A stretch of DNA of 64,000 nucleotides from Crocinitomicaceae bacterium (GTDB lineage: Bacteria; Bacteroidota; Bacteroidia; Flavobacteriales_D; Crocinitomicaceae), in NCBI GenBank assembly GCA_021740745.1, contig JAIOZF010000005.1, positions 1 through 64,000 of the forward strand, given 5' to 3'. Under the pieces are notes generated by a model, which saw only the letters and a program-made list of their open reading frames with translations, was not told the origin of the DNA and made no database searches. A program made the position numbers and the translations under genes. Positions 17,776 through 62,043 of this stretch are shown one piece after another; position 1 is the stretch's first letter; each line of letters begins with the position of its first letter.

Positions 17776-17866
17776 CAGACAAAAGATCGCTGCGCTTTAG
17801 TACAAAAAGACAAAGTACTTTATTTTTGGAGAAAATAAAAGTCTTTTAGCGAAGCTGTCTTTTGTC
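17776..17866. repeat. imperfect long inverted repeat (hairpin-forming) in intergenic DNA
   Basis: cagacaaaagatcgctgcgctttag (17776 on) pairs imperfectly with cttttagcgaagctgtcttttgtcc (to ~17867); inner gtacaaaaagacaaagtac can also pair. Confidence 0.6.
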
Positions 17867-17912
17867 CTATTGTCCTAATGTCCTAACGTCCTAACGTCCA
17901 AATGTCCTAACG
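17865..17912. repeat. 8-bp tandem repeat (tcctaacg/tcctaatg), 6 copies
   Basis: tcc starts at 17865, 17873, 17881, 17889, 17897 and 17905. Confidence 0.9.
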
Positions 17913-17919
17913 CCAAAAT

Positions 17920-35318: not shown

Positions 35319-37844
35319 ATGAAAAGAATACTATTTATTTTATGCCTTTTACCGACTGTAATTTTTGCTCAAACGACCAATCTATTCATATCTGAATATG
35401 GCGAAGGTTCTGGTGGAAACAAAAAATACCTTGAAATTTATAATGGAACCGGAGCAACGGTTGATTTGGCAAATTTCCAAATTTGGAAAGGAATAAATGG
35501 AGCGGTTTGGGGTGCACCTTTATCACTCACTGGATCCTTATTAAATGGGAGTACTTATGTCATTGGTAATAACAATATAGATGTTATTGGTGCGGATTTA
35601 TACAACACTTATATCAATTTCAATGGAGATGATGCAATGGGTTTAGCATGGAATGGAGGATCTGGAGCTACTTTTACATTATTAGATGTTTTTGGAATTG
35701 AAGGAATTGATCCAGGAACAAGTTGGACAATTGCTGGTAACGCGAGTGCTTCTCAAGATAAAATCTTAATTCGTAAACCAACAGTTTGTTCACCAAGTAC
35801 TGATTGGACAGTTATTGCAGGTACAGATGCCGCTTCTTCGCAATACACGATTGTTGTTGATCCATACAATTTAACTAGTCAAACAACTGATTTAGGAATC
35901 CATACCGCAACGTGTATCACAAGTTGTAATACAACAAGTTCTTTCTCTATTACGAATTGTACATCATACACCGTTCCCAGTGGAGATGAGACGTATACGG
36001 TATCTGGAATTTATTTAGATACTATTCCAAATGCTGCATTGTGTGATAGTGTTATGACAATAGATGTTACCATCACAACTGGAATTACTTATTATGCAGA
36101 TTTAGATACGGATGGTTTAGGTGATGCGAACAACACAACTATCGGTTGCGTTTTGCCAGTTGGATACGTAACAAATAGTAACGATTGTAATGATACAGAT
36201 AACCTAATAGGCCTTCCAACAACAGTTTATTATTTGGATGCTGATCTTGACACCTATGGTGATTTGAATAGCACCACTGTCGCTTGTTCATTGCCGGCAG
36301 GATACGTAACAAATTCATTGGATTGTAATGATAATGACAATACTATAAATCCGATGGGAATTGAGATCCTTGATAATGGAATCGATGAGGATTGCTCTGG
36401 TTCAGATGCATCTGCATTAGGTACCCAAATTGGATTATATGAATTCACTGCTGCAGCTGCTTGTCCAGTTACAGCAGTATCAGTAACAACTCAACCTTCA
36501 AATGCTGTTTTTAGTGATTACACAAGCACAGGAACGAGTTGTTCTCAAGCCAACAATGTATTCAGCAATAGTGGTTGGAATACCACACCATCAATTGATT
36601 TAGGAGAATACAATGAGTTTTCAATTCAAGCAAATGACTGCTCTACTTTGGATTTGAATCGCATTATTTTCACGCATAGAATAAGTGGTTCTGGTGGTAC
36701 ACCAACATGGACTCTTCGCTCTAGCGCAGACAATTACACGGCTGATTTAGCAACAGGTACACCTCTAACAACAGACAAAACTGATACTATCAATTTATCT
36801 GCTGCATTCGACGCATTAACGCAAGTATCTTTCCGTTTCTATATCACGAATATGGGAGCCACAGGCTCTACTTGGAGAAATGATAACGTTCGAGTTATTG
36901 GAAATTTCGGTTCATTGACACCTCAAACTTTCTATGCTGATACAGACAGTGATACTTACGGTGATTTAAACGCTCCATTGACTGTTTGTACACCACCAGC
37001 AGGGTATGTTTCAGATAATACAGATTGTGATGATACAGATGGTTTAGTTAATCCTATGACAACTTGGTATCAAGATAATGATGGCGATTTATCTGGTAAT
37101 ACTGCAGTAACTTTTGTAGGTTGTACTCCTCCTGTTGGGTATGTTTTAGATTCAGGTGACTGTGACGATAATGACGTTTTAATTGTTTTACCAACAACGT
37201 ATTATGCAGACGCCGACAATGATGGATTCGGTGCAGGGCTTGGGCTTGTATTATGTACAAATCCAGGTGCAGGATATGTAACAAACCAAGGCGATTGCGA
37301 CGATGCATTAAATACAGTTTATCCGGGAGCCCCAGAAATCTGCGACCAATTAGATAACAATTGTAATGGTACATCTGATGAAGGTTTAATTTTTAATGCA
37401 TATTTCACAGATACAGACAATGACACATATGGAACGGGAACGGGAACATTGTATTGCCAAGATCCCGGAACAGGCTATTCATTAATTGATGGTGATTGTA
37501 ATGATTCAAATCCAAATGCTTATCCTGGTGCAACAGAAATCCTAGATAATGGGATTGATGAAAACTGCGATGGTGTAGATGGGTATTTATCTATTGACCA
37601 AATCGAAGCAGTTGTTTTGACAATTTACCCAAATCCTTCAATTGGCATTTTTACTATTAAATTCAATACTGAATTAAATGGACAAATTGTGTGTGCAGAC
37701 TTAAATGGTAAAACATTGAAAACAATCGCAATATCAAATTCTGAACAAGTATTGGATTTCTCAGAATTAGCAAATGGAAATTACTTGCTTAAAATTATGA
37801 CTGAAGTTGGCGTTCGTCAATTTAGAATTGTCATTCAAAAGTAA
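35319..37844 (+). CDS. lamin-tail domain + MopE-like metal-binding repeats + T9SS type A sorting domain protein
   Basis: N-terminal LFISEYGEGSGGNKKYLEIYNGTGATVDLANFQIW; repeated YYADxDxDxYG...GYVTNxxDCxD; PEICDQLDNNCNGTSDEG; C-terminal YPNPSIGIFTIKF...LANGNYLLKIMTEVGVRQFRIVIQK. Confidence 0.92.
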   Translation: MKRILFILCLLPTVIFAQTTNLFISEYGEGSGGNKKYLEIYNGTGATVDLANFQIWKGINGAVWGAPLSLTGSLLNGSTYVIGNNNIDVIGADLYNTYINFNGDDAMGLAWNGGSGATFTLLDVFGIEGIDPGTSWTIAGNASASQDKILIRKPTVCSPSTDWTVIAGTDAASSQYTIVVDPYNLTSQTTDLGIHTATCITSCNTTSSFSITNCTSYTVPSGDETYTVSGIYLDTIPNAALCDSVMTIDVTITTGITYYADLDTDGLGDANNTTIGCVLPVGYVTNSNDCNDTDNLIGLPTTVYYLDADLDTYGDLNSTTVACSLPAGYVTNSLDCNDNDNTINPMGIEILDNGIDEDCSGSDASALGTQIGLYEFTAAAACPVTAVSVTTQPSNAVFSDYTSTGTSCSQANNVFSNSGWNTTPSIDLGEYNEFSIQANDCSTLDLNRIIFTHRISGSGGTPTWTLRSSADNYTADLATGTPLTTDKTDTINLSAAFDALTQVSFRFYITNMGATGSTWRNDNVRVIGNFGSLTPQTFYADTDSDTYGDLNAPLTVCTPPAGYVSDNTDCDDTDGLVNPMTTWYQDNDGDLSGNTAVTFVGCTPPVGYVLDSGDCDDNDVLIVLPTTYYADADNDGFGAGLGLVLCTNPGAGYVTNQGDCDDALNTVYPGAPEICDQLDNNCNGTSDEGLIFNAYFTDTDNDTYGTGTGTLYCQDPGTGYSLIDGDCNDSNPNAYPGATEILDNGIDENCDGVDGYLSIDQIEAVVLTIYPNPSIGIFTIKFNTELNGQIVCADLNGKTLKTIAISNSEQVLDFSELANGNYLLKIMTEVGVRQFRIVIQK

Positions 37845-44887: not shown

Positions 44888-45370
44888 TTAACGCAAGCGG
44901 TTAAGTGAATCAATCAAACCTTTGTCGCGTTTGATTGAGATATTTGCAAGAAAAACGAATGGTAAACCAAGCACAAAAAGAAGATATCCAAGACCCAATT
45001 CTCGTTTAAAAGGTCCACCTTCGAATTGGTTTTCTCCAATAAAAGAGAATACAACAAGAGCAATGGTTAAAAGCAAGTATAGAAAAAATACGATTCGCAC
45101 CAATTTCAATTGACGACTTAAATTTTTGTACGCCATTAGGGTGACAAAAAGCAATAATACGATGGCTATCAAGCTAATATAAAATGGATAAGCATTTACA
45201 ACTTCTGCTTTTCCGGAAGTAGATGAATTAGCATATTGAGAAATTCCATAAGAATTAAACACAAAATAGAAATCATTACCAACAAAACGAAAAACCTCAC
45301 TCCCTGTCGCCACGATAGAAAGCAAAATCATAGAAACGGCCAAATAGATTGTTTGAATACGTTGAATCAT
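44888..45370 (-). CDS. DUF4293 family membrane protein
   Basis: MIQRIQTIYLAVSMILLSIVATGSEVFRF, four TMs; typical Bacteroidota protein. Confidence 0.88.
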   Translation of the reverse strand: MIQRIQTIYLAVSMILLSIVATGSEVFRFVGNDFYFVFNSYGISQYANSSTSGKAEVVNAYPFYISLIAIVLLLFVTLMAYKNLSRQLKLVRIVFFLYLLLTIALVVFSFIGENQFEGGPFKRELGLGYLLFVLGLPFVFLANISIKRDKGLIDSLNRLR

Positions 45371-45565
45371 TTGAATGTAAATTTTACACAAAGAAAGTGA
45401 AAATCGAGCACATAATGAATTCCGGAATGCATCAAATATAAACTTCATGCAATTATGGGGAGGCTACACAAAAACTTCATCCTATCATGATGATTATCAT
45501 TAATTGGTTTAATTTCAGTCGCACAGTGTTTTAATTATCCTAACAATCAAGACAGGATCCAACGA

Positions 45566-45769
45566 TGAAAAAATAACAAACTATAAAATTGTCAATTATT
45601 TTCGAAAATGAAAATTTACAGACATATATTGAATATTAGTGCAGTTTGAATAAATATTCAATGCCTATTTTTGTATTTTATAAACTTATCTTTGGGAGGA
45701 CTGAATAAGTTTGTTTTAATTTACGCTATCTATTATTTTTACAGGCAACTTTAGAAGACATTTTGCGTC
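45566..45769 (+). promoter_or_regulatory. duplicated promoter/leader, copy 1
   Basis: 204-bp ungapped match to 54718..54921 with about a dozen mismatches by eye; contains TTTG (45645) -17 bp- TATTTTTG (45666..45673), a good Bacteroidota sigma-factor promoter. Confidence 0.9.
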
Positions 45770-45910
45770 TAAATAGGCCATCCTTAGAAATGTAGTTTTC
45801 GTTCGATATTTTTTCAAACCACAAAAAATCAACATTTTAAGTTTTTATGAATGAATCGAGACATTCATAACTTTCTTGAAAAGAATAATTGTTTGATGAA
45901 AAAATGTTAA

Positions 45911-46564
45911 ATGAAAAATAAAGTTAACCTATTAACTGTCTTCAGTTTTGTTTTTATTACTAGCTTTTTTGCCAATGCTCAAAACAAGGCTGCAGAAGGG
46001 ATGGAAGCATCAGAAACTAACTTTTCTAGTTTTACAGATCGCCCAATTCAAAATTTAGGTAATTGGAAGAAAATCAATAAAGAAGCGTTTTATTCTCATC
46101 CAGAGTTTGGTATTTTGTCATTAGATGCATCTTGTAAAGATTGTTCCGAAGACTTATCGAAACGAACGGTAGATGAACGATTTTTTGTTGATAATAATGA
46201 CCATAAACAATTTTATCAGCAAAAAGCAATGGGAGAATTGCATGAGCTCATTGGAGGCAATTGGACAACAATTGATCATCGTTTGAAAAAAGTCTCTAAT
46301 GGCATCTATAAATCTGGTTTTAATTTGGATAGGGCTGGTTTTGACCTTGCAAATAAAATATCGTTACTTGAAACTACTAATGGCAATCTAAGTTTCAATA
46401 ATTGGAGATTGATTTTAAAAAAAGATGGTCAATTACAGGGCCCTATTTCAGCCAACTGGTCAATCATTTCAATCGGTGATGATGGCGTTAATATAACAGC
46501 TGTATTCCCGGGAATTGATGCTTTTATTATTGATAACTTCTGCACCCTTAACGTTAAAGTTTAA
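45911..46564 (+). CDS. secreted protein of unknown function (217 aa), possibly truncated N-terminal module of a larger surface protein
   Basis: Signal peptide MKNKVNLLTVFSFVFITSFFANAQ; no counterpart in cassette copy 2. Confidence 0.75.
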   Translation: MKNKVNLLTVFSFVFITSFFANAQNKAAEGMEASETNFSSFTDRPIQNLGNWKKINKEAFYSHPEFGILSLDASCKDCSEDLSKRTVDERFFVDNNDHKQFYQQKAMGELHELIGGNWTTIDHRLKKVSNGIYKSGFNLDRAGFDLANKISLLETTNGNLSFNNWRLILKKDGQLQGPISANWSIISIGDDGVNITAVFPGIDAFIIDNFCTLNVKV

Positions 46565-46731
46565 ATGTTTTATATTCAAGTATTTATAAAAATTATCGGA
46601 TGAATATTTGAAATTATTTAGTTTTTTATGTATAAAATAATTAATACACAACTGATTAATAAACAACTGATTATACAAATTTACGTCATTCAAAAAATAA
46701 ATTAAGTCAACAATACTATAACTACTACTCA

Positions 46732-47211
46732 ATGCGCATAGTTCCCTTAATATTAGCTATACTGTCTGTTCTGATTTGTCAAAACAGCATTTCTCAACAA
46801 CAAATATCAACAGATACAATTAATTTAATTGACAAATACTCAGTTGATTGGCTAACATATTTTGAAAATGATCAAGTTAAGATTGAATATAAATTCTCAG
46901 AATGCGATCCTGAAATGGGATATGATTTCGAACAAGTGAATTTTAAGTTTATCAATAAAACTTCTACCAAACTTGATCTCAATTGGCATATCCATTTGTA
47001 TTATGATAAAAAATGCTTGACATGTAATTATCCGGATGAGTATGCGCGAACCATTCAATTGCTACCAAATGAGACACTAGAAGGGAATTGCGACCGAGAA
47101 ACTATTAATGAATTGAAATTGTTTTCAAAATTCACTGATGTAAACTATTCTAAAGGTGCGATTTTAACAAGTTTTCAGTTAGCTTCATTAAATATTGCAT
47201 TTCCTCAGTAA
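46732..47211 (+). CDS. secreted companion protein, paralog 1
   Basis: Signal peptide; core GYDFEQVNFKFINKTSTKLDLNWHIHLYYDKKCLTCN shared with 54951..55421. Confidence 0.88.
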   Translation: MRIVPLILAILSVLICQNSISQQQISTDTINLIDKYSVDWLTYFENDQVKIEYKFSECDPEMGYDFEQVNFKFINKTSTKLDLNWHIHLYYDKKCLTCNYPDEYARTIQLLPNETLEGNCDRETINELKLFSKFTDVNYSKGAILTSFQLASLNIAFPQ

Positions 47212-47273
47212 TTCAGATTTAATTTTATTTGATACTAAAGCATTCAAATGAATAACAAAACTATTCCACAAAA

Positions 47274-50200
47274 ATGAAAAATATAAGACAGATCGTTCTA
47301 ATGTTCACTTTTTTATCAATGAACATTTTAGTGTTTTCACAAACCTATCTATTAAGTGCTGCTGCTAACAATACCACTGTAAGCACTTGTGGGGGTAATT
47401 TTTATGATTCTGGTGGAGCGACAGGACAATATACTAATAATCAAAACCGTACTATTACATTTTGTCCGAATACACCTGGAGCAATGATTCGCTTGAATTT
47501 TACAGCGTTTGCGTTAGAAAATTCTTATGATTTTCTTTACATATATAATGGTACTAGCACAGCAGCACCTTTATTAGGAACATATACGGGAACAAACAAT
47601 CCTGGTGTGGTTACAGCAAATAATCCTTCAGGATGTATAACAATCAGATTCACCTCTGATGGTTCTGTTTTAGCAAATGGTTGGGCAGCTGCCATTTCAT
47701 GCATTGCACCCGCGACATGCACTGATGGTATTCAAAATCAAGGTGAAAACGGTATAGACTGCGGTGGCCCTTGTGCAGCTTGTCCTCCTGTCCCTTGTAA
47801 TGTTAATTTAACATATACATCAGTACCGGCCAACCTAACATGTGCGGGCGGATCAGTTTCATTAACAGCTGTTGGTCTAGGCACAAATAACCTAGCAATG
47901 AACAATAATTTTAACGGAGGATCTTTAGGTGCTGGTTGGATTGCAACAGGTGGGCAGTCCGTAGGAACACTTTGCGGACCAAGTCTTGATGGCACTCCTT
48001 ATTATTGGGCATCAACAGCCGGTTCTAGTGTTCCTCAGTTAACAACTGCTGTTTTAAACGTAAGTTGCGGTGGTATAATTAGTTTTGATATGGATTATGC
48101 AACTCAAGGAGCCAATGCACCTTGTGAAGGACCTGATTTACCGAATGAGGGTGTTACCTTTCAGTACTCTACTAATGGCGGTGCTTCATGGACGGTTATT
48201 CAGTATTGGGATCCGCTAGGTGGTTATAATGCTGGATTGACAAACTGGAACACATATTCATTTCCAATTCCGCCTGGTGCAATTGGGCCAAATACTCAAT
48301 TCCAATGGATTCAATTGTCATCATCTGGATCTCAATATGATAATTGGGGGATTGATAATGTACAAATTTCATCTGTAATTAATTGCAACGCTTATTGGTA
48401 TGATTATTCTTTTTTACCGCCTACAAGTGATAACGCAGTTCAAACAACAAATATAACTAGTACCACAACTTTTAATGTCACCTATACAAATGGTATAGAT
48501 GCTTGTAATACTTCTGTAACTGTTGTTGTTCCTCCAGGAACTACTGCCAATGCAGGGCCAGATAAAGTAAGATGTTCTGGTGGTGCAGGAGTTGTGATTG
48601 GTGCGAATCCGGTTTCACCTGATAATGGGGCTACTTATTCATGGAGTGCTGGCGCTGGATCAGGAACAATAGATCTTATACCAGCAGGAGGCACAACTAC
48701 TGGTCAAGTAACCGTTTCACCTTTGGTAACAACAACCTATACATTAACTGTTACCTTTAATGGTTGTACCGTAACTGATCAAGTTACTGTTGTTGTTGAT
48801 AATCCGCCAACAGCATCTAATCCTGCACCAATTACATTAACATGTGCTTCAGCAATTCCAGCACCAGATATAAATGTTGTTACAACAGAAGCCGACGATA
48901 TCACAATTCCTCCTACAGTAACTTGGATTAGTGATGTTTCAAATGGTGGTATTTGTCCAAATATTGTAACAAGAACTTATCGTGTAACTGATGGATGTGG
49001 AAACTTTGTTAATGTTACTCAAACGATTACTGTTTCAGATTTAATTGCTCCAACAGTAACTGGAACTTTAACGGCAGCTGCAGTATCGGGATGCTCCGCG
49101 ACTTCAGTTCCTGCAGCAGTAACGACAGTTGCAGCTTTGGAAGCAATGGGCGTTGCAATAGCTGATAACTGCACTGCAGATGCTAGTTTAACGGTAACAA
49201 GTTCAGATGGAGCGCCAACAGGTACTTGTCCGATTGTGATAATCAGAACGTATACCATCAAAGATGCGTGTTTGAATGCAATTACAGTTAATCAAACAAT
49301 CAATATTACAGACCTAATAGTTCCAACAGCTTCTAATCCTGTTGATATTTCTGTAGCCGCAGGAACTGCGCCAGCGCCAAACATTTTACTTGTTATTGAT
49401 GAGGCAGACAATTGTTCAATTCCAATAGTTGCTTGGGTAAGTGATGTTAGCAATGGAGGAACATGTCCAGAAATAATTACAAGAACTTACAGTGTTACAG
49501 ATGCATGTTTAAACCAAATATTATTAACTCAAACAATAACTGTTGGAGATGCTATTTTGCCAACTGCCTCAAATCCTTCAGCAATAAATGTTCAATGTTC
49601 AGCTTTAGTGCCATTACCAGATGTTTTAGTTGTAACAGATGAAGCCGATAATGGGGTAACACCAACTGTGACTTGGCAAGATGATGTGTCAAATGGTTTG
49701 ACTTGTCCAGAAATAATTACAAGAAGATACCTAGTTACTGATGATTGTGGAAACTTTATTTTTGTCACTCAAACAATAACAGTATTGGACACACAAGCTC
49801 CAGTTTTTGTAGCTCCACCAACTGCTGTCACTGTTGCTTGTTTAGCTGACGTTCCTGCGATGACCAACCTTGGGTATACTGATAATTGCGATCCTGCTGG
49901 ATCGGTAGCTGGTACTGATGGTGCTTTAGTTGGAGGTGCTTGTGGTGGTACAATAACACGTACGTGGACTTTCACTGATCTTTGCGGTAATACTTCTACA
50001 ACAACTCAAACAATTACAGTTGACGATAATACGTTGCCTACGGCTTCAAATCCTGCAACGATAACTGTTCCTGGTGGACCAGCTCCAGCGGTTGATGTGA
50101 CAGTCGTAATTGATGAAGCGGATAACTGCTCTGTACCTGTAGTTACTTTCGTGAGTGAATCAACTGACGGTGCCGCTTGTCCTGAAACGATTACTCGTAT

Positions 50201-53200
50201 TTACGCTGTAACGGATGCTTGTGGGAATACAATCAATGTTACACATACTATTCTTATTACAGATCCATTCTCACCAACTGCTTCAAACCCTGCTCCTATT
50301 TCTGTAGAGTGCATCGCTGATGTTCCAGCTCAAAATATTGCAGTTGTGACGGATGAAGCAGATAATACAGGTGTGCCGATCGTTGCTTGGGTAAGTGACG
50401 TATCGAACGGTGCTACTTGTCCAGAAATTATTACACGTACTTATTCTGTTACGGATCTCTGTAACAATCAAATCTTGGTGACTCAAACAATTACGGTCGA
50501 TGATGTAACTACTCCAATATTCGCTGCAGCGCCAGCTGCGGTAACTGTTTCTTGTTTAGCTGACGTTCCTGCAATGACAAACCTTGGATACACTGATAAC
50601 TGTGATCCTGCTGGATCGGTTTCAGGAACTGATGTTTCTAATGGAGGTACTTGTCCTGAAATTATAACAAGAACATGGACTTTTACGGATCTTTGTGGGA
50701 ATACTTCAAGTGCTTCGCAAACAATTACAGTTCACGATTTAGTAGCACCAATATTCGCTGCTGCTCCGGCTGCTGTAACCGTTGCTTGCGCTGCTGACGT
50801 TCCTGCAATGACAAACCTTGGATACACTGATAATTGTGATCCTGCTGGATCGGTTACAGGAACTGATGTTTCTAATGGTGGTACTTGTCCTGAAATCATA
50901 ACAAGAACATGGACTTATACGGATGCTTGCGGCAACACTTCATCTACTACTCAGACTATCACTGTTCATGATTTAGTAGCACCAATATTCGCTGCTGCTC
51001 CTGCTGCTCTTACTGTTGCTTGTTTAGCTGACGTTCCTGCGATGACAAACCTTGGATATACTGATAATTGCGATCCTGCTGGATCGGTTGCTGGCACTGA
51101 TGGTGCTTTAGTTGGCGGTGCTTGTGGTGGAACAATCACACGTACGTGGTCTTTCACTGATCTTTGCGGTAACACTTCGTCTACTACTCAAACAATTACA
51201 GTTGATGATAATACGTTGCCTACTGCTTCTAATCCTGCGACAACTACTGTTCCTGGTGGTCCAGCTCCAGCGGTTGATGTGACAGTAGTAATTGATGAAG
51301 CGGATAACTGCTCTGTACCCGTAGTTGCTTTCGTAAGTGAGTCAACTGACGGTGCCGCTTGTCCTGAAACGATTACTCGTATTTACGCTGTAACCGATGC
51401 TTGTGGGAATACATTCAATGTTACACATACTATTCTTATTACAGATCCATTCTCACCAACAGCTTCAAACCCTGCTCCTATTTCTGTAGAATGTATCACT
51501 GATGTTCCGGCTCAAAACATTGCAGTTGTGACGGATGAAGCAGATAATACAGGTGTGCCGATCGTTGCTTGGGTAAGTGATGTGTCTAACGGTGCTACTT
51601 GTCCAGAAATCATTACACGTACTTACTCTGTTACGGATCTCTGTAACAATCAAATCTTGGTGACTCAAACAATCACGGTCGATGATGTAACTACTCCAAT
51701 ATTCGCTGCTGCGCCAGCTGCGGTAACTGTTGCTTGTTTAGCTGATGTTCCTGCAATGACAAACCTTGGATACACTGATAATTGTGATCCTGCTGGATCG
51801 GTTACAGGAACTGATGTTTCTAATGGTGGCACTTGTCCTGAAATTATAACAAGAACATGGACTTTTACGGATGCTTGTGGTAACACTTCATCCACCTCTC
51901 AAACAATTACAGTTCATGATTTAGTACCACCAATATTCGCTGCTGCTCCGGTTGCTGTAACTGTTTCTTGTTTATCTGACGTTCCTGCGATGACCAACCT
52001 TGGATACACGGATAATTGTGATCCTGCTGGATCGGTTACAGGAACTGATGTTTCTAATGGAGGTACTTGTCCTGAAATCATAACAAGAACATGGACATTC
52101 ACGGATCTTTGCGGCAACACTTCATCTACTACTCAGACTATCACTGTTCACGATTTAGTAGCACCAATATTCGCTGCTGCGCCAACTGCTGTAACTGTTG
52201 CTTGTTTAGCTGACGTTCCTGCGATGACAAACCTTGGATACACTGATAATTGTGATCCTGCTGGATCGGTTGCTGGTACTGATGGTGCTTTAGTTGGAGG
52301 TGCTTGTGGTGGTACAATCACACGAACGTGGTCTTTCACTGATCTTTGTGGTAACACTTCGTCTACTACTCAAACAATTACAGTTGACGATAATACGTTG
52401 CCTGCGGCTTCTAATCCTGCGACAACTACTGTTCCTGGTGGACCAGCTCCAGCGGTTGATGTGACAGTCGTAATTGATGAAGCGGATAACTGCTCTGTAC
52501 CTGTAGTTACTTTCGTGAGTGAATCAACTGACGGTGCCGCTTGTCCTGAAACAATTACTCGTATTTACGCTGTAACGGATGCTTGTGGGAATACAATCAA
52601 TGTTACACATACTATTCTTATTACAGATCCATTCTCACCAACAGCTTCAAACCCTGCTCCTATTTCTGTAGAATGTATCGCTGATGTTCCGGCTCAAAAT
52701 ATTGCAGTTGTGACGGATGAAGCAGATAATACAGGTGTGCCGATTGTTGCTTGGGTAAGTGACGTATCGAACGGTGCTACTTGTCCAGAAATCATTACGC
52801 GTACCTATTCTGTAACGGATCTCTGTAACAATCAAATCTTGGTGACTCAAACAATCACGGTCGATGATATCACTGCTCCAACTGGTACAGCACCAGCAAA
52901 CGTGACAGTCGAATGTATTAATGACGTGCCACCAGTTCCTTTAGCAGTTACATTCGTGATAACAGATGCGATGGACAATTGCACGGCTGTTCCAGCGTTG
53001 GATTGGGTTGGTGATGTATCCGATGGAAATACATGTCCTGAGACAATCACAAGAACTTTCTCAATTACTGACAATTGTGGAAATCAGACATTAGTTGATC
53101 AATTAATCATTGTAAATGACGTTACAGCACCAACTGCTTCTAACCCAGGCAGCGTGAATGTTGAGTGTATTTTAGATGTTCCGGTAGCTGACATTACAGT

Positions 53201-54632
53201 TATAACAAATGAAGCTGATAACTGCACTACCGCTCCACTTGTTGCATGGGTAAGTGACGTTTCTGATAACGGAACATGTCCTGAAACAATTACAAGAACT
53301 TATTCTGTGACAGATGATTGTGGTAATCAAACGTTGTTAACACAAACTATCATTGTCAATGATGTCACCAATCCAACTGCTACTAACCCTGTTGCTATTA
53401 GTGTTGTTAGCGCTGCGACGGTTCCTGTTCCAGATCCAACAGTTGTTATAGATGAAGCAGATAATTGTACTACAAATCCAATCGTTGTATGGGTAAGTGA
53501 TGTGTCAAACGGTAATGTATGTAACAATGAACAAATCACACGTACATACAGTGTTACTGACGATTGTGGGAATAGTATAATTGTGACACAATTAATTACT
53601 ATAACTGCAATTTACCCTACAATATCTGCCGGAGTGGATCAAACCGTATGTGAAAATGAATCAGTAACCTTGTCTGGAACTTATAGTCCATCTACAACAG
53701 TTATTTCTTGGACGGCACCAGTAGTTGATGGTGTGAGCTTTACACCTCAAGTTGGAACGAATACCTATACACTTACCGCAAATAATTATGGTTGTATTGC
53801 AACTGACAATTTGACTATTGTAGTAAATCCAATACCCGCAGTAAGCTTTACACCTGATGTTACTGAAGGATGTGAACCGTTAAGTGTGTTCTTCAACAAT
53901 ACTTCTACTTCAGGATTAGCACTTACTAATTGTGTTTGGACGATGGGAGATGGCACAGTTCTAAACGGTTGTGGAGATATTAACTATACTTATAACAATC
54001 CAGGAATCTTTACTGTTGGATTAACATCAACAGATGCAAATGGTTGTACAAATTCGGTTTCTTATCAGAACTTGATTTATGTTGAAGATTATCCTGTTGC
54101 AGACTTTACAGCTTCAGAGTACAACTTGAGCAATTTATTAAATGAAACAGAGGTTAATTTTACGAATCAATCAAGTGGTGCAGTAACCTACTTATGGACA
54201 TTTGGTGATGGAGGAAATTCCACGGAAACAAATCCTAGTCATTTATTTGAAACTGATTTAGCTGGAAGTTATACAGTAATGCTGGTTGCCTATTCTGATT
54301 TAGGATGCACGGATACTGCGTATCAATCATTCACAGTGACGGAAGAATTAATTTTCTATGTTCCAAATACGTTCACGCCAGATAATGATGTATTCAACAA
54401 TACCTTCCAACCTGTATTTACTTCAGGGTTTGATCCTTACAACTTCAACATGTTAATTTACAATCGTTGGGGAGAAATTATTTTTGAAACACGCGATGCT
54501 TCAATCGGATGGGACGGTACATACAATGGTGATTATGCTCAAGATGGAATTTACACGTGGAAAATTGAATTTAAATCAAGAGTTAACGACAAGAAATATG
54601 TAAAAGTAGGCCATGTCAATATGATGAGATAA
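47274..54632 (+). CDS. giant surface protein: CUB-like + Cys-rich + reelin-subrepeat-like + HYR-like array + PKD + gliding-motility (T9SS type B) C-terminal domain
   Basis: 2452-aa uninterrupted ORF; C-terminus FYVPNTFTPDNDVFNNTFQPVFTSGFDPYNFNMLIYNRWGEIIFETRDASIGWDGTYNGDYAQDGIYTWKIEFK; repeats SNPAPISVECIADVPAQNIAVVTDEADNTGVPIVAWVSDVSNGATCPEIITRTYSVTDLC. Confidence 0.95.
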   Translation: MKNIRQIVLMFTFLSMNILVFSQTYLLSAAANNTTVSTCGGNFYDSGGATGQYTNNQNRTITFCPNTPGAMIRLNFTAFALENSYDFLYIYNGTSTAAPLLGTYTGTNNPGVVTANNPSGCITIRFTSDGSVLANGWAAAISCIAPATCTDGIQNQGENGIDCGGPCAACPPVPCNVNLTYTSVPANLTCAGGSVSLTAVGLGTNNLAMNNNFNGGSLGAGWIATGGQSVGTLCGPSLDGTPYYWASTAGSSVPQLTTAVLNVSCGGIISFDMDYATQGANAPCEGPDLPNEGVTFQYSTNGGASWTVIQYWDPLGGYNAGLTNWNTYSFPIPPGAIGPNTQFQWIQLSSSGSQYDNWGIDNVQISSVINCNAYWYDYSFLPPTSDNAVQTTNITSTTTFNVTYTNGIDACNTSVTVVVPPGTTANAGPDKVRCSGGAGVVIGANPVSPDNGATYSWSAGAGSGTIDLIPAGGTTTGQVTVSPLVTTTYTLTVTFNGCTVTDQVTVVVDNPPTASNPAPITLTCASAIPAPDINVVTTEADDITIPPTVTWISDVSNGGICPNIVTRTYRVTDGCGNFVNVTQTITVSDLIAPTVTGTLTAAAVSGCSATSVPAAVTTVAALEAMGVAIADNCTADASLTVTSSDGAPTGTCPIVIIRTYTIKDACLNAITVNQTINITDLIVPTASNPVDISVAAGTAPAPNILLVIDEADNCSIPIVAWVSDVSNGGTCPEIITRTYSVTDACLNQILLTQTITVGDAILPTASNPSAINVQCSALVPLPDVLVVTDEADNGVTPTVTWQDDVSNGLTCPEIITRRYLVTDDCGNFIFVTQTITVLDTQAPVFVAPPTAVTVACLADVPAMTNLGYTDNCDPAGSVAGTDGALVGGACGGTITRTWTFTDLCGNTSTTTQTITVDDNTLPTASNPATITVPGGPAPAVDVTVVIDEADNCSVPVVTFVSESTDGAACPETITRIYAVTDACGNTINVTHTILITDPFSPTASNPAPISVECIADVPAQNIAVVTDEADNTGVPIVAWVSDVSNGATCPEIITRTYSVTDLCNNQILVTQTITVDDVTTPIFAAAPAAVTVSCLADVPAMTNLGYTDNCDPAGSVSGTDVSNGGTCPEIITRTWTFTDLCGNTSSASQTITVHDLVAPIFAAAPAAVTVACAADVPAMTNLGYTDNCDPAGSVTGTDVSNGGTCPEIITRTWTYTDACGNTSSTTQTITVHDLVAPIFAAAPAALTVACLADVPAMTNLGYTDNCDPAGSVAGTDGALVGGACGGTITRTWSFTDLCGNTSSTTQTITVDDNTLPTASNPATTTVPGGPAPAVDVTVVIDEADNCSVPVVAFVSESTDGAACPETITRIYAVTDACGNTFNVTHTILITDPFSPTASNPAPISVECITDVPAQNIAVVTDEADNTGVPIVAWVSDVSNGATCPEIITRTYSVTDLCNNQILVTQTITVDDVTTPIFAAAPAAVTVACLADVPAMTNLGYTDNCDPAGSVTGTDVSNGGTCPEIITRTWTFTDACGNTSSTSQTITVHDLVPPIFAAAPVAVTVSCLSDVPAMTNLGYTDNCDPAGSVTGTDVSNGGTCPEIITRTWTFTDLCGNTSSTTQTITVHDLVAPIFAAAPTAVTVACLADVPAMTNLGYTDNCDPAGSVAGTDGALVGGACGGTITRTWSFTDLCGNTSSTTQTITVDDNTLPAASNPATTTVPGGPAPAVDVTVVIDEADNCSVPVVTFVSESTDGAACPETITRIYAVTDACGNTINVTHTILITDPFSPTASNPAPISVECIADVPAQNIAVVTDEADNTGVPIVAWVSDVSNGATCPEIITRTYSVTDLCNNQILVTQTITVDDITAPTGTAPANVTVECINDVPPVPLAVTFVITDAMDNCTAVPALDWVGDVSDGNTCPETITRTFSITDNCGNQTLVDQLIIVNDVTAPTASNPGSVNVECILDVPVADITVITNEADNCTTAPLVAWVSDVSDNGTCPETITRTYSVTDDCGNQTLLTQTIIVNDVTNPTATNPVAISVVSAATVPVPDPTVVIDEADNCTTNPIVVWVSDVSNGNVCNNEQITRTYSVTDDCGNSIIVTQLITITAIYPTISAGVDQTVCENESVTLSGTYSPSTTVISWTAPVVDGVSFTPQVGTNTYTLTANNYGCIATDNLTIVVNPIPAVSFTPDVTEGCEPLSVFFNNTSTSGLALTNCVWTMGDGTVLNGCGDINYTYNNPGIFTVGLTSTDANGCTNSVSYQNLIYVEDYPVADFTASEYNLSNLLNETEVNFTNQSSGAVTYLWTFGDGGNSTETNPSHLFETDLAGSYTVMLVAYSDLGCTDTAYQSFTVTEELIFYVPNTFTPDNDVFNNTFQPVFTSGFDPYNFNMLIYNRWGEIIFETRDASIGWDGTYNGDYAQDGIYTWKIEFKSRVNDKKYVKVGHVNMMR
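49791..52870 (+). repeat. higher-order tandem repeat, period 1182 bp (394 aa, five HYR-like units), ~2.6 copies
   Basis: Identical landmarks spaced exactly 1182 bp: GTDGALVGG codons at 49911/51093/52275; antisense shadow ORFs at 50283/51465/52647. Confidence 0.95.
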
Positions 54633-54650
54633 AAACCAATAAATAGAAAC

Positions 54651-54680
54651 AAAAAAGCGATCTAAACGATCGCTTTTTTT
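54651..54680 (+). terminator. terminator of cassette copy 1 (duplicated)
   Basis: aaaaaagcgatctaaacgatcgcttttttt. Confidence 0.9.
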
Positions 54681-54717
54681 ATGCTTATAAAATCTTGGTT
54701 TGAGATTTTGACTTACC

Positions 54718-54921
54718 TGAAAAAATAACAAACTACAAAATTGTCAATTATTCTCGAAAATGAAAATTTACAAACATAAATTGAATATTAGTGCAGTTTG
54801 AATAAATATACAATGCCTATTTTTGTATTTAATAAACTTAACTTTGGAAAGACTGAATAAGTTTGTTTTAATTTACGCTATCTATTCTTTTTATAGGCAA
54901 CTTTAGAAGACATCTTGCGTC
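54718..54921 (+). promoter_or_regulatory. duplicated promoter/leader, copy 2
   Basis: Matches 45566..45769; TTTG (54797) -17 bp- TATTTTTG (54818..54825). Confidence 0.9.
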
Positions 54922-54950
54922 CATTTATATATTAATAAGTAATTTACAAC

Positions 54951-55421
54951 ATGAAATCTCTACTATTCATTTTAATTTTGTTGTCAACGAGTCGCTTATC
55001 TGCGCAAAGTCAACTCCCAACAGATACAATTAACCTAATTGACAATCATTCAACAACTTGGAGAACGTATTTTGAAAATGATCAAATTCGAATTGAATTT
55101 ATATCATCCAATTGCGACCCTTCAATGGGATATGACTTTGAACAAGTGAATTTTAAGTTTATCAATAAAACTTCTACCAAACTTGATCTCAATTGGCATA
55201 TACATTTGTATTATGATAAGAAATGCTTAACATGTAATCATCCTATGGAATATTCCCGAACAATCAGATTGATTGGAAATGAAACGTTAGAGGGTGACTG
55301 CAGAAGAGAAACGCCAGATGAATTGAAATTATTTTCCAAATTCAACGATGCAAACTATTCGAAAGGTGCTATACTAACGTCCTTTCAATTGGCATTCTTA
55401 ACTATTTCTGCAGTTGACTAA
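54951..55421 (+). CDS. secreted companion protein, paralog 2
   Basis: Signal peptide MKSLLFILILLSTSRLSAQ; aligned to paralog 1 across its length, with a 62-nt identical stretch. Confidence 0.88.
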   Translation: MKSLLFILILLSTSRLSAQSQLPTDTINLIDNHSTTWRTYFENDQIRIEFISSNCDPSMGYDFEQVNFKFINKTSTKLDLNWHIHLYYDKKCLTCNHPMEYSRTIRLIGNETLEGDCRRETPDELKLFSKFNDANYSKGAILTSFQLAFLTISAVD

Positions 55422-55469
55422 ACTGTCGCTCATACTTTTTTGTTACGATCCGAATTAACAATATACATT

Positions 55470-58400
55470 ATGAAATTTTTATTCTCAATATTATTTACAG
55501 TTGCACTATTATCTGATGGGGTATTTGCTCAAGCAGTTGTGCCATGTGATGTAGAATTAACATATTCTACCGGTTTTTATGATCCGCCGCCAGTTGCAGG
55601 CCCGGCATATAACATGTCAAATACTACAGTAAACACTTGTGGAGGAACTTTTTATGATCCAAATGGAACAGGTAATTACGCCAATAATCAATTAAATACA
55701 ATGACATTTTGTTCTTCGACTGCAGGTGCTCAGCTACAGTTCATATTTACTTTATGGAATCTTGAAACTTGTTGCGATTATTTAAGTATTTATGATGGTC
55801 CAAATACGTCAAGTCCACTATTGTTCAATGATGATGGGTCAAATAGCCCTGGAACAGTTACTTCAAGTAATGGGTGTTTAACTTTTGTTTGGGACTCGGA
55901 TGGTTCAGTTGTCGGTCAAGGTTGGGCGGCTACAATCAATTGTGTTGATGTGCCTATCCCCTTCAATTGCAATGGAGGAACTGTTTTTTTACAAGCAACT
56001 GGCGTTGGTGACTACGAAATAGTTCAAAATAATAATTTTAATAATGGTTCATTAGGTGCTGGTTGGGTGGCAACAGGTGGTCAATCTGTTGGTACAGCTT
56101 GTGGTCCAAGTCTTGATGGTACTCCTTACTATTGGGCATCTACTGCTGGATCAGGTGTTCCTCAATTAACCACAGTTGGCTTAGATGTGAGTTGTGGTGG
56201 ATTTCTGACATTTGACTTGGATTATGCTACTCAAGGTGGAGCAGCTCCTTGTGAGGGTCCCGATTTACCCAACGAAGGTGTTACACTGCAATATTCAACA
56301 AACGGTGGAGCAACATGGACTGTCATTGAGTATTTTGAACCACTAGGTGGATATGATGCTACAATGACAAGTTGGAATAACTATTCCTTCCCAATTCCTC
56401 CAGGAGCGGTTGGTCCAAATACTCAATTTCAATGGATTCAACTTTCGTCATCCGGTTCTTGTTGTGATAACTGGGGAATTGATAATGTCCAAGTTTCTTC
56501 TGTTGTTAATTGTACACCTTATTGGTATGATTATTCATACCTTCCCCCCTCTGTTGACAATCCAAGTCAAACTGCGACGATAACGTCTACAACTACTTTT
56601 AATGTTACCTATACGAATGGAATAGATGCTTGCAGCACTTCAGTAACTGTTGTTGTACCTCCAGGAACGACAGCAAATGCTGGTGCTGATGTCACAATGT
56701 GTGCAGGTGGAACAGGTGTTGTAATAGGAGCAAGCCCTGTTACATCAGACAACGGTGCTACTTTCTCTTGGAGCGCAGGAGCAGGTTCGGGCACAATCGA
56801 CTTAGTTCCTGCTGGAGGCACAACCACAGGTCAAGTTACAGTTTCACCAGCAGTTACTACAACTTATACATTAACAGTTACTTACAATGGTTGCACAACA
56901 ACGGATCAAGTTACTGTAACTGTAAATCCAGTTGCGACGGTAAATGCGAATATCGAACAGACTGTTTGTGCAGGTGGTACAATTACACTTGCTGGTGCAG
57001 TTGGCGGCGGAGCAACTTCGGGGACTTGGACCGCACCAACGGGAACATTTTCCAGTGCAAGCAATTTAGCATCAACTTATACTCCTTCAATAACTTCAGG
57101 AACGGAAACGTTAACACTTACTACAGATGATCCAGCTGGACCATGCCCTTCTGTTTTAGATCAAATGATCGTAACTGTAAATCCGGTTCCAACAGTGATT
57201 GCTGGTCAACCACAAACGGTATGTGAAGGAACTAATATCACACTTGCTGGTACTGGAGCAACAAGCTATTCATGGGACAATGGAGTAACACAAGGTATAG
57301 CGTTTGCTCCTACTGCTACAACAACCTATACGGTTACAGGTACAACTTTAGGATGCACAAATACAAGCACAGTTACTGTGACTGTAAATCCAATTCCTAA
57401 CGTTAATGCAGGTAATGACATTTCAATCTGTGCGTCTACATCAACGACTTTAACAGCATCGGGTGCAACAACATATTCATGGTCTCCAGGTGGATTGACA
57501 ACTGCAGAAATCACTGTTTCTCCAGCTGCGACAACTAGTTATACTGTTACTGGTACATCTTTAGGATGCACCGCAACTGATATCGTAACTGTTACTGTGG
57601 CGGGCAGTGCGCCAATTAATGCAGGTCCGGATGTTGAATTATGTATCGGAGCTTCGACCACATTGAATGGCACTGGTGGTGATACATATGTATGGGATAA
57701 TGGTTTAGGTAATGGCAACAACTTTACAATTTCGCCAGCTTCGACAACAACTTATACTGTCATTGGAACAGATGCTTCTGGTTGTGTTGGAACAGATGCA
57801 ATTACAGTAACTATTAATCCAATACCAACAGTTCTTGCTGGTCAGCCACAAACGGTTTGTTCAGGCACAGCTGTGACTTTAAGCGCTTCTGGAGCAACAA
57901 GCTATTCTTGGGATAACGGTATTTCGCAAGGGGTAGCTTTTACACCTACTGCAACAACAACATATACAGTTACAGGAACAGCTTTAGGTTGTACAAATAC
58001 TAGTTCTGTATTAGTGACGGTAAATCCTTTACCAACGGTAGTAGCTGGTCCGCAACAAACAGTTTGTGAAGGGACTTCTATTACGCTAACTGCATCTGGT
58101 GCATCAACTTATACATGGGACAATGGCGTTACTCAAGGTGTAGCGTTTACTCCTACTGTTGGCGCTGTGACATATACAGTCACTGGTACTTCTGGTGCTG
58201 GATGCACCAATACTAGTGCAGTTTTAGTTACAGTTAATCCTTTGCCACTTGCAGATGCTGGTGGAGATCAGGTAGTTTGCGCAGGAACAAGTGTTACATT
58301 ATCTGGACAAGGTGCCGCAACTTATTCATGGAATATTAGTGTAACAAATGGTACAGCCTTTACTCCTGCTGTTGGCGCTGTGACATATACAGTCACTGGT

Positions 58401-60893
58401 ACTTCTGGTGCTGGATGTATAGCAACTGATCAAGTTGTGGTAACAGTAAATCCTAATCCATCTCCAATAATAAATGGAACGACTGATTATTGCATTGGAT
58501 ACCCTGCACTTTTGTCAACCTCTATTCCTTTTGCAACTTACGATTGGTCTACATTGGTTTCAACAGCGACTACTTCTGCTACAATAGCTAATAATCCAAT
58601 TACGGTTACCGTTACGAATGCTTTTGGTTGTTCCGGCACTTCTCCAGCATTTATTGTGAATGAAAATTTATTTATTACTGCCAATTCAACTGAAACAATT
58701 TGTCAAGGACAATCAGTTTTGATTCATGGGGTTTCTCAATCGGTAGCAGGTTTATACTCGCAAACGTTTACAACCAGTACTTGTGATTCTGTTTCGAATG
58801 TTACGTTAATTGTTAATCCATTACCAATTGTTAATGCCGGATTGGATCAGGAAGTTTGCACACTAACAGCAACTTCATTGACCGCAACAGGTGCTGCAAC
58901 TTATTCATGGGATAATGGAATTACAAATGGAGTTACTTTTACTCAAGCTCTCGGAACGACTACTTATACCGTAACGGGAACAAGTGTTGATGGTTGTATC
59001 AGTACGGACCAAGTTGATATCATAGTTAATCCTCTCCCTCTGATAGATGCAGGTGCAGATCAAGCAATTTGTATTGGAACATCTGCTATTATTTCAGGAG
59101 CAGGAGCAGCGACCTATACATGGAATAATGGTGTGACAGATAATGTTTCATTTACACCAGCTTTAACAAATACGTATACCGTTACAGGAACAGATGCTAA
59201 TGGATGTGTAAACACAGACCAAGTTGTTGTGACTGTTAATCCATTGCCAACAGTGGTTGCCGGACCAGACGAAGATATTTGTTTTGGAGCATCCGTTACC
59301 TTATCAGGTTCTGGTGCTTCAACATACACATGGGATAATAGTGTAACAAATGGTATTTCATTTTCTCCTGCTGCAACGACCACTTATACCGTTACAGGGA
59401 CAGATCTGAATGGATGTATCGATACGGATCAAGTTTTAGTAACTGTTAATCCTTTACCAGTTGTAAATGCTGGTATAGATCAAGATGTTTGTCAAGGAAC
59501 TCTTATTACACTTTCTGGTGCTGGAGCAACTACCTATTCTTGGAATAATGGTGTACTAAATGGAACTCCTTTTACACAAGCTGTTGGAACTGTAACATAC
59601 ACTGTAACAGGAACTGACGCAAATGGTTGTATTGATACTGATCAAGCTGACATTACTGTCAACCCAACACCGGTTGTAAATGCAGGACTTGATCAAATTG
59701 TTTGTATTGGTGCTTCTGTTACGTTAGCAGGAAGTGGAACGTCAACCTATTCATGGAACAATGGAATTACAAACAACGTTGCCTTTACACCTTCTCTTGG
59801 AACTGTAACTTATACTGTAACAGGAACAAGTATTGAGGGATGTATAACAACTGATGACGTTGTTGTCACCGTAAATCCTTTGCCAGTTGTCTTTGCAGGA
59901 AATGACGTTACTGTTTGTGAAGGATCAACTGTAACTTTAACTGGTTCAGGTGCTTCAAACTATTCTTGGAATAATGGTGTGTTGAATGGAACACCATTTA
60001 CACCGAGCGTTGGCACAACAACGTATACAGTCACAGGCACATCAGCTGCAGGTTGTATAAATACTGATCAAATAGACATAATTGTTAATCCAATACCAAT
60101 AGTATCATTTTCTCCAGATGTAACAAGTGGTTGTGTACCATTAACGGTGAATCTAACAAACACAACTCCAAATTCTGTAAACTGCTTGTGGACGATTAGT
60201 AATGGTACTGTTTTAAATGGATGTGGAACTGTACCAGTTACTTTCACACAAGGAGGATGTTATGATGTGACATTAACGACAACATCTAATAATGGATGCG
60301 CTGGTACATTAACTTCAACAAATCTTATTTGTGTTGAAGCATTGCCTATCGCTTCGTTCTCTCCATCTTCTAATACGGTAACAACGATCAATACAGAAGT
60401 GATTTTCACAAATCAATCAATTGGTGCATCTTCATATTACTGGACTTTTGGAGACGATTCACCATCATCTACAGATGTTAATCAAATTCATGTATATCCA
60501 GATAGTGAGACAGCGAATTACTTAGTAACATTAATTGCATACTCGCCACTAGGTTGCACGGATACAGCTTTAGCATATATAAATGTGGTTGAAGAATTGA
60601 TTTTCTATGTACCCAATACATTCACTCCAGATGATGATAATTTTAATCCAGTTTTTCAACCTATTTTCACAGCTGGTTTCGATCCTTATGATTATACCTT
60701 ATTAATTTTTAACCGTTGGGGTGAAATCATTTTTGAATCAAAAGATGCATCAATTGGATGGAATGGAACGTATGGTTCAAATGGAGAAATACAAATGTGT
60801 CAGGATGGAACATATACATGGAAAATTGAATTCAAAACAAAATTGAATGACGAACGGAAAATGATCCTTGGTCATGTTAACCTAGTAAGATAA
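55470..60893 (+). CDS. giant surface protein: CUB-like + reelin-subrepeat-like + Ig-like repeat array + PKD + gliding-motility (T9SS type B) C-terminal domain
   Basis: Likely start MKFLFSILFTVALLSDGVFAQ at 55470 (track start 55440); repeats such as VNAGIDQDVCQGTLITLSGAGATTYSWNNGVLNGTPFTQAVGTVTYTVTGTDANGCIDTDQADITVNP; C-terminus FYVPNTFTPDDDNFNPVFQPIFTAGFDPYDYTLLIFNRWGEIIFES. Confidence 0.95.
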   Translation: MKFLFSILFTVALLSDGVFAQAVVPCDVELTYSTGFYDPPPVAGPAYNMSNTTVNTCGGTFYDPNGTGNYANNQLNTMTFCSSTAGAQLQFIFTLWNLETCCDYLSIYDGPNTSSPLLFNDDGSNSPGTVTSSNGCLTFVWDSDGSVVGQGWAATINCVDVPIPFNCNGGTVFLQATGVGDYEIVQNNNFNNGSLGAGWVATGGQSVGTACGPSLDGTPYYWASTAGSGVPQLTTVGLDVSCGGFLTFDLDYATQGGAAPCEGPDLPNEGVTLQYSTNGGATWTVIEYFEPLGGYDATMTSWNNYSFPIPPGAVGPNTQFQWIQLSSSGSCCDNWGIDNVQVSSVVNCTPYWYDYSYLPPSVDNPSQTATITSTTTFNVTYTNGIDACSTSVTVVVPPGTTANAGADVTMCAGGTGVVIGASPVTSDNGATFSWSAGAGSGTIDLVPAGGTTTGQVTVSPAVTTTYTLTVTYNGCTTTDQVTVTVNPVATVNANIEQTVCAGGTITLAGAVGGGATSGTWTAPTGTFSSASNLASTYTPSITSGTETLTLTTDDPAGPCPSVLDQMIVTVNPVPTVIAGQPQTVCEGTNITLAGTGATSYSWDNGVTQGIAFAPTATTTYTVTGTTLGCTNTSTVTVTVNPIPNVNAGNDISICASTSTTLTASGATTYSWSPGGLTTAEITVSPAATTSYTVTGTSLGCTATDIVTVTVAGSAPINAGPDVELCIGASTTLNGTGGDTYVWDNGLGNGNNFTISPASTTTYTVIGTDASGCVGTDAITVTINPIPTVLAGQPQTVCSGTAVTLSASGATSYSWDNGISQGVAFTPTATTTYTVTGTALGCTNTSSVLVTVNPLPTVVAGPQQTVCEGTSITLTASGASTYTWDNGVTQGVAFTPTVGAVTYTVTGTSGAGCTNTSAVLVTVNPLPLADAGGDQVVCAGTSVTLSGQGAATYSWNISVTNGTAFTPAVGAVTYTVTGTSGAGCIATDQVVVTVNPNPSPIINGTTDYCIGYPALLSTSIPFATYDWSTLVSTATTSATIANNPITVTVTNAFGCSGTSPAFIVNENLFITANSTETICQGQSVLIHGVSQSVAGLYSQTFTTSTCDSVSNVTLIVNPLPIVNAGLDQEVCTLTATSLTATGAATYSWDNGITNGVTFTQALGTTTYTVTGTSVDGCISTDQVDIIVNPLPLIDAGADQAICIGTSAIISGAGAATYTWNNGVTDNVSFTPALTNTYTVTGTDANGCVNTDQVVVTVNPLPTVVAGPDEDICFGASVTLSGSGASTYTWDNSVTNGISFSPAATTTYTVTGTDLNGCIDTDQVLVTVNPLPVVNAGIDQDVCQGTLITLSGAGATTYSWNNGVLNGTPFTQAVGTVTYTVTGTDANGCIDTDQADITVNPTPVVNAGLDQIVCIGASVTLAGSGTSTYSWNNGITNNVAFTPSLGTVTYTVTGTSIEGCITTDDVVVTVNPLPVVFAGNDVTVCEGSTVTLTGSGASNYSWNNGVLNGTPFTPSVGTTTYTVTGTSAAGCINTDQIDIIVNPIPIVSFSPDVTSGCVPLTVNLTNTTPNSVNCLWTISNGTVLNGCGTVPVTFTQGGCYDVTLTTTSNNGCAGTLTSTNLICVEALPIASFSPSSNTVTTINTEVIFTNQSIGASSYYWTFGDDSPSSTDVNQIHVYPDSETANYLVTLIAYSPLGCTDTALAYINVVEELIFYVPNTFTPDDDNFNPVFQPIFTAGFDPYDYTLLIFNRWGEIIFESKDASIGWNGTYGSNGEIQMCQDGTYTWKIEFKTKLNDERKMILGHVNLVR

Positions 60894-60906
60894 AATAAAC
60901 TAGCAT

Positions 60907-60938
60907 AAAAAAAAGCGATCTAAACAATCGCTTTTTTT
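60907..60938. terminator. terminator of cassette copy 2 (also positioned to serve aroC)
   Basis: aaaaaaaagcgatctaaacaatcgcttttttt; near-identical to 54651..54680; flanking agcat...atgct extends the stem. Confidence 0.9.
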
Positions 60939-60969
60939 ATGCTTTAATAATTTGATTAAATCTTTTGGT

Positions 60970-62043
60970 TTATTCCCAAACTGTAGTTTTTTGTCTCAAG
61001 TAAAAATCAAGTATTACCATGGCTGCCATTGCTTCTACAATTGGTACTGCTCTTGGAACAACACATGCGTCATGCCTGCCTTTTCCTAATAACTCCACTT
61101 TTTCACCGATGGAATTGATTGTTTCTTGCGGTTTTAATATGGTTGCAACTGGTTTAAATGCTACTCTAAATTCAATTGGCATTCCATTCGAAATTCCACC
61201 TTGAATTCCACCACTGTTATTTGTTAAAGTTGAGCCATCCGAGTTGAACAAATCATTGTGATCGGATCCTCGCATTTCTGCAGATGCAAAACCACTTCCG
61301 AATTCAACTCCTTTTACAGCATTAATAGAAAGCATAGCCTTGCCTATTTCAGCATGTAATTTATCAAAAACAGGATCTCCCAAACCTGCAGGAACATTCA
61401 CAATCATACAGCGCACACATCCGCCAACAGTGTCACCATCCTTGCGCACATCACGAATCAAATGTTCCATTCGTTCAGCCGTTAATTCATCTGGACAACG
61501 CACTAAATTGGATTCAATCGCATCAGTCAAAAAGAAGGAAGGATCTTGTAATTTAATATGTCCCACTTGATCAACATAAGTTGAGAATTCAATTCCCAAT
61601 GACTCTAAAAATTGTTTTGCAATCGCACCTGCAACTACACGACAAGCCGTTTCTCTTGCGCTTGACCTTCCTCCTCCTCTATGGTCACGAGTGCCATATT
61701 TTTGATCATAACTATAATCTGCATGAGAAGGCCGATATGCTTCTTTCAAATGATCATAATCACTTGAATGTTGATCTTCGTTGGGAATAACAAAACCGAT
61801 TGGTGTACCTGTGGTTTTTCCATTAAACAAACCTGATAAAAATTGAACCGTGTCGGACTCCTTTCGTTGTGTAACAATAGCAGATTGACCTGGTTTTCTT
61901 CTGTCAAGTTCGAATTGTACTTTGTCTAAATCAATTTTGAAATTAGAAGGTACACCATCTATAATTCCGCCGATTGCTGAACCATGTGATTCTCCAAATG
62001 TCGTTAATTTGAAAATTGTACCAAACGTAGAACCTGCTGCCAT
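60970..62043 (-). CDS. aroC: chorismate synthase
   Basis: [63 protein letters not shown]. Confidence 0.98.

Follow-up and report, generated by a model that had tools for sequence, protein, structure and literature searches.

Evidence for a chimeric reelin-headed surface protein, and for a companion gene family tied to its head, in a Crocinitomicaceae bacterium

Introduction

Mosaic surface adhesins evolve by recombination of their heads and stalks. In the type IX secretion system (T9SS), the known specificity lies at the C-terminus of the substrate, in the C-terminal domain (CTD) and its shuttle. Genes of type-B substrates are often followed by a gene for an SprF shuttle, but not always: F. 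johnsoniae has 12 such substrates, 3 of them orphans (PMC12618676, PMC9143113). In Salmonella, sadB lies directly upstream of the adhesin gene sadA, and surface display of SadA is increased 4-6 fold with SadB (PMC3953254). Here we report on two tandem gene units of a Crocinitomicaceae bacterium, each encoding a small secreted companion and a giant, predicted T9SS type-B protein headed by CUB and reelin-type domains. They lie in a window of 64,000 nt (the whole stretch of DNA that was analysed; all coordinates refer to its forward strand) of contig JAIOZF010000005.1 (assembly GCA_021740745.1).

Judged from its sequence, the second giant appears to be a chimera, in which a reelin head of the first giant's type sits on the stalk, the PKD domain and, less clearly, the sorting domain of a giant with Ig-like repeats (hereafter Ig giant). 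The locus would represent a documented chimeric adhesin whose two parents can be named, along with the gene order from which it arose and a later gene conversion. The novelty lies in the companion family linked to reelin heads and in the well-documented head transplant, not in a programmed diversification cassette; a literature search for reelin or HYR domains with T9SS, Crocinitomicaceae adhesins and adhesin gene conversion in Bacteroidetes found nothing. To the account as a whole, which comprises duplication of a cassette of companion and giant, joining of the head to the rear of an Ig giant, later gene conversion and a working model of the companion's role, we assign a probability of roughly 0.7.

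Results

Two co-directional units are present on the plus strand, each consisting of a leader, a secreted companion, a CUB- and reelin-headed T9SS type-B giant and a terminator, and such units occur twice here and nowhere else in the genome, which comprises 3.03 Mb in 137 contigs (96% complete) and is probably a metagenome-assembled genome (MAG). Giant 1 (47274-54632; 2452 aa) consists of a CUB domain, a reelin-type head domain (47904-48530 by profile search), an Ig unit, a stalk of about 20 units of the HYR_4C type (approximately 48816-53813), a further Ig unit, a PKD domain and a T9SS type-B domain. Giant 2 (55470-60893) comprises a CUB domain, a reelin head, a stalk of Ig_7-type units, a PKD domain and a T9SS type-B domain; its listed open reading frame (ORF) starts with TTG at 55440 and has 1817 aa, and the ATG at 55470 is the likelier start. 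Both giants match the Pfam families CUB, Reelin_subrepeat-B, PKD_4 and CHU_C (42.9 and 43.2; cut-off 27) and the NCBIfam family TIGR04131 (39.7 and 36.4 bits; cut-off 35), and by these C-terminal domains they are predicted T9SS type-B substrates. The head domain is a clear homologue of reelin domains, with E 5e-19 to Pfam and E 2e-41 to reelin crystal structures.

Much of this anatomy had been described in the original prediction, and its main elements hold: an ungapped 204-bp leader with about 94% identity (192 of 204 sites, 94.1%), a small secreted companion in each unit (159 and 156 aa, with 110 of 156 aligned residues identical), CUB, reelin, PKD and gliding-motility sorting domains in both giants (confirmed by the Pfam and NCBIfam profiles), and near-identical terminators. 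A 217-aa ORF in unit 1 had been missed. The estimate of about 20 HYR units stands, and that of about 16 Ig units is lowered to about 14-15 by profile count. The centres, described as unrelated, are indeed HYR and Ig arrays, but the first Ig unit behind the reelin domain is common to both giants (78% identical) and the HYR array of giant 1 closes with one Ig unit.

The front and the rear of giant 2 have different nearest relatives. The head segment (reelin domain and first Ig unit; 56028-56917) is common with giant 1 (47901-48790) at 79-82% on the amino acid and 75% on the DNA level, and the head tree places the two giants together with support of 100/98. The rear (56934-60893), comprising the Ig stalk, PKD and sorting domain, is nearest to a 2363-aa Ig giant (53.5% over 1399 columns) of the sister species G006 (a Flavobacteriales MAG, record CANNKP010000041.1), which has a CUB but no reelin domain. 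To this protein the PKD domain of giant 2 shows 56% (vs 48% to giant 1) and its sorting domain 81% (vs 67%), and five distinctive stalk units have their best matches there in the same order and with large margins over the second-best. A tree of the last 280 aa pairs giant 2 with the G006 Ig giant (100/98), and the same tree forced to hold giants 1 and 2 together was rejected (p-AU, approximately unbiased test, 0.023). A clade of giant 2 with four of the Ig giants by the C-terminus was likewise rejected by the tree test, so that C-termini appear to have been exchanged between lineages as well and the firm pair is giant 2 and the G006 protein alone. Since stalk and base seem to have arrived together, the event is better described as a head transplant than as a stalk swap.

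The gene order in related genomes points in the same direction. In three genomes of a second genus (G203, G167, G196), guaA is followed by a gene for a LysM-like protein, hemF, an Ig giant without reelin domain, a companion and a reelin-headed HYR giant; an unlisted short gene occupies the hemF position in G203, and a SecA-like ORF adjoins guaA at the relatives' locus (gene names here were assigned by sequence and length). In G006, this order can be followed as far as the companion, where its contig ends. The order in G238 is hemF, Ig giant, companion and then a short reelin giant without HYR stalk, and that in G227 is hemF, companion and HYR giant, with no Ig giant. The five heads closest to those of giants 1 and 2 are all on HYR stalks, which together with the conserved order suggests that giant 1 has the old architecture and giant 2 a derived one. 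In the window, the block lies at a different chromosomal site than in the relatives and its order is permuted; its move may have involved copying or a circle-like permutation, with subsequent recombination close to the common CUB or Ig units. Tandem cassettes are also found in G032 and G180.

Companion 1 (46732-47211) and companion 2 (54951-55421) matched no Pfam or NCBIfam family and, by sequence profile, no PDB entry. They share the traits of a family of proteins of about 140-160 aa with a signal peptide and conserved C, CxxC, N, E and C residues, whose genes immediately precede a reelin T9SS ORF. By profile search, 107 of 249 sampled genomes of the order have a homologue, compared with 3 of 393 in a phylum-wide set, of which two belong to the window's own family. 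The linkage was assessed in 40 regions picked solely for holding a companion (44 companion ORFs): a reelin-containing ORF follows directly 3' on the same strand in 41 cases, at distances from an overlap of about 40 bp to a gap of 63 bp, and in one further case a second companion comes next and then the reelin-containing ORF. All 30 testable companions of a first set, partly gathered via reelin hits, also lie directly upstream of a reelin ORF. The converse fails, as several reelin T9SS proteins have no companion. Across 68 cassettes, distances between companions are correlated with those between heads (r 0.65; partial r 0.59 when controlling for the base) and not with those between bases when the head is controlled for (partial r 0.02). 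By these comparisons the companions appear as a new, undescribed family tied to reelin heads. Behind the same head type, different cassettes vary in the type and length of the stalk, which may be absent (giants of about 650 aa) or run to 20 repeats.

Several loci depart from the usual arrangement. Two companion genes in a row precede one reelin giant at locus L181 of G105. In L094, a 1808-aa ORF has three reelin-type stretches and no companion, and in L232, which holds a companion homologue from outside the order (G298), the next ORF looks secreted and, over the stretch examined, has no evident reelin domain.

Companions carry four conserved cysteines and, judged by eye, ordinary signal peptides, and are modelled as a beta-sandwich with a predicted local distance difference test (pLDDT) score of 89. 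No type-B CTD was detected in them; nor was a lipoprotein signal, the presumed mature start having no conserved cysteine (alignment, by eye). Foldseek searches with two companion models, with and without signal peptide, gave MATH domains, SadB and DUF1425 as top matches (probability about 1, E 0.0015-0.007), with template modelling (TM) scores of 0.43-0.46 to SadB and MATH. Sequence homology to SadB/YajI was not found by PDB profile or Pfam.

The leaders (45566-45769 and 54718-54921) are present in exactly two copies in the genome and absent from the 25 other genomes of the genus, including the region upstream of the orthologous companion. Both contain a promoter form of Bacteroidota, TTG-N17-TATTTTTG, found by motif scan at 45646-45673 and 54798-54825. 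The terminators (54651-54679 and 60909-60937) have the core gcgatctaaac(g/a)atcgc, whose only two genomic sites, even with one mismatch allowed, are at 54657 and 60915. Leader and terminator are therefore specific to these two units, and a genome-wide element in front of unrelated genes was rejected for both. The leader is not a known RNA either: no Rfam family matched at gathering level, and its fold is no better than that of shuffled sequences.

The divergence between the units is uneven. Synonymous divergence (dS) is 1.06 between the companions and about 1.7 between the N-termini of the giants; for the leaders d is about 0.06 (12 of 204 sites). With a dS of 0.46, the G006 orthologue is a nearer relative of companion 1 than companion 2 is, which places the duplication before that species split. 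The longest run identical between the companions spans 62 bp (46930-46991; permutation p 5e-5), and across it 17 consecutive informative sites are paralogue-like amid a background that resembles the G006 orthologue. Recent conversion between the units would explain this tract and probably also the similarity of the leaders, so that leader identity does not date the duplication.

The units are flanked by a DUF4293 gene (44888-45448) on the left and a chorismate synthase gene (60970-62043; named from its sequence) on the right, both on the minus strand. The 217-aa secreted ORF (45911-46564, plus strand) separates leader 1 from companion 1; unit 2 lacks an equivalent. Over about 198 aa this ORF is 63% identical to the start of a 1460-aa T9SS type-B ORF on contig C52 of the same genome (L214:2927-7309), and it has no match in other genomes of the genus; as a truncated copy of the N-terminal head of another protein, unmatched elsewhere in the genus, it was rejected as a part of the cassette. 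PorP/SprF proteins have 18 matches elsewhere in the genome and none on the window's contig (C58), and porP/sprF-like genes are rare beside other cassettes; with no shuttle gene adjacent, the giants presumably borrow one. Signs of a phase-variable or invertible surface cassette were not found: the flanking ORFs scanned include no recombinase, and the inverted repeats are weak only. Elsewhere in the window, we observed a T9SS type-A protein with lamin-tail and MopE-like metal-binding motifs (35319-37844), a 566-aa protein with an unusual combination of response-regulator, adenylate/guanylate-cyclase and weak HD domain matches (26037-27737), a 32-bp unit repeated 2.5 times at 95% immediately before an AAA_14/DUF4143 ATPase gene (15678-15756), and short tandem repeats of the TGTCCTAA/TGTCCAAA type (period 8/16/24) between two minus-strand ORFs (17863-17917).

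Discussion

The observations can be combined in the following account. Unit 1 would have kept the old architecture, a reelin head on an HYR stalk, and unit 2 would have arisen by fusion of a copied companion and head to the rear (stalk, PKD domain and sorting end) of an Ig giant that formerly adjoined the cassette; gene conversion would later have made the leaders, and 62 bp of the companions, alike again. As a working model, both units may be transcribed from the common leader, and companion and giant would cross the inner membrane via Sec. In the periplasm, the companion might then assist assembly or export in a head-specific manner, comparable to the part that SadB plays for the adhesin SadA. 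Surface delivery of the giant by the T9SS would be directed by the type-B domain, with the head as the binding module and the stalk determining reach.

Several results speak against parts of this account. The grouping of giants 1 and 2 is not rejected on the last 195 or 100 residues (p-AU 0.2 and 0.42), which makes the origin of the sorting domain less certain than that of the stalk, and the CUB domain of giant 2 is no closer to one parent than to the other. As companion and head adjoin each other, linkage alone could yield the correlation of their distances. The resemblance to SadB is at E about 0.006 and a TM score below 0.5, and the companion is not lipoprotein-like.

The role of the companion is the most tentative part. 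By analogy with SadB, we rate a periplasmic, head-specific assembly or export factor at somewhat less than even odds. Co-display as a cap or ligand has about the same odds, and the broader alternative that the companion is such a ligand or cap for the reelin head, or a mere linked hitchhiker, is a serious competitor that also falls short of an even chance: neither a T9SS type-B sorting domain nor a lipoprotein signal was seen in the companion, and linkage would explain the co-inheritance. A hitchhiker would, however, not be expected to remain about -40 to +60 bp from the same head type across many genera. That the companion is the founding member of a periplasmic assembly-factor family dedicated to the N-terminal heads of T9SS giants, and travels with transplanted heads, is a stronger claim that we regard as rather unlikely.

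For the leaders, strong constraint on a functional regulatory or RNA element could replace recent conversion, and the promoter-like motif in both copies agrees with it. This is improbable in view of the even spread of the 12 substitutions (Kolmogorov-Smirnov p 0.95), the absence of an Rfam match or stable fold, and the absence of the leader from all other genomes of the genus, even upstream of the orthologous companion.

The original prediction had explained the locus by tandem duplication of a whole unit and replacement of the central array in place, with both ends, leader and terminator kept since. Duplication and modular exchange are retained from it, and the homologous ends and leaders, as well as trees of the CTD only, are compatible with such a stalk swap. 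Yet the C-terminal part of giant 2 also seems to derive from the Ig-giant lineage, as the pairing of its rear with another species' Ig giant indicates; the leaders have diverged many times less than the synonymous sites; and outside one tract companion 1 is nearer to the companion of the sister species than to companion 2 (69 vs 12 sites). Comparison with the relatives supports an exchange of modules, but the older order of guaA, hemF, Ig giant, companion and HYR giant speaks against a simple swap, which we consider quite improbable. The suggested role as a modular diversification cassette agrees with the long-term pattern of varied stalks on one head type, but evidence of programmed switching was not found. 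A mis-joining of metagenome contigs that created the chimera or the tandem pair is very improbable: although the assembly is a fragmented, probable MAG and contigs of G006 and others break at the same locus, companion, head and stalk of unit 2 have diverged from every other sequence found and so are not copies stitched from unit 1, every junction is crossed by a single ORF, and a 204-bp repeat at 94% is easy to resolve.

Head transplant with later conversion remains the preferred reading, and against this background the locus can be set beside the known systems. With SprB-SprF and other type-B substrates with PorP/SprF shuttles (PMC9143113, PMC12618676) it shares giant repeat surface proteins with TIGR04131/CHU_C domains; it differs in having an upstream companion instead of an adjoining shuttle gene, although the lack of such a shuttle gene is not unique, as orphans are known. 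Should the companion act on the head, substrate specificity would gain a second layer, located away from the CTD/shuttle pair at the other end of the protein, and a partner gene tied to an N-terminal head would be a new element in the assembly of giant adhesins in Bacteroidota. With SadB-SadA of Salmonella (PMC3953254) it has in common a giant adhesin gene immediately preceded by the gene of a small exported protein, and the fold match to MATH/SadB is weak, whereas the companion has an ordinary signal peptide and no detectable sequence relation to SadB, and adjoins T9SS proteins. The domain shared with Reelin subrepeat-B proteins is clearly homologous, but here it forms the head of a bacterial T9SS giant. 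As in mosaic surface adhesins, head, stalk and anchor recombine and repeat numbers vary; the present case stands out in that both the parents and an ancestral locus conserved in relatives can be identified, and in that the head appears to move with its own companion gene.

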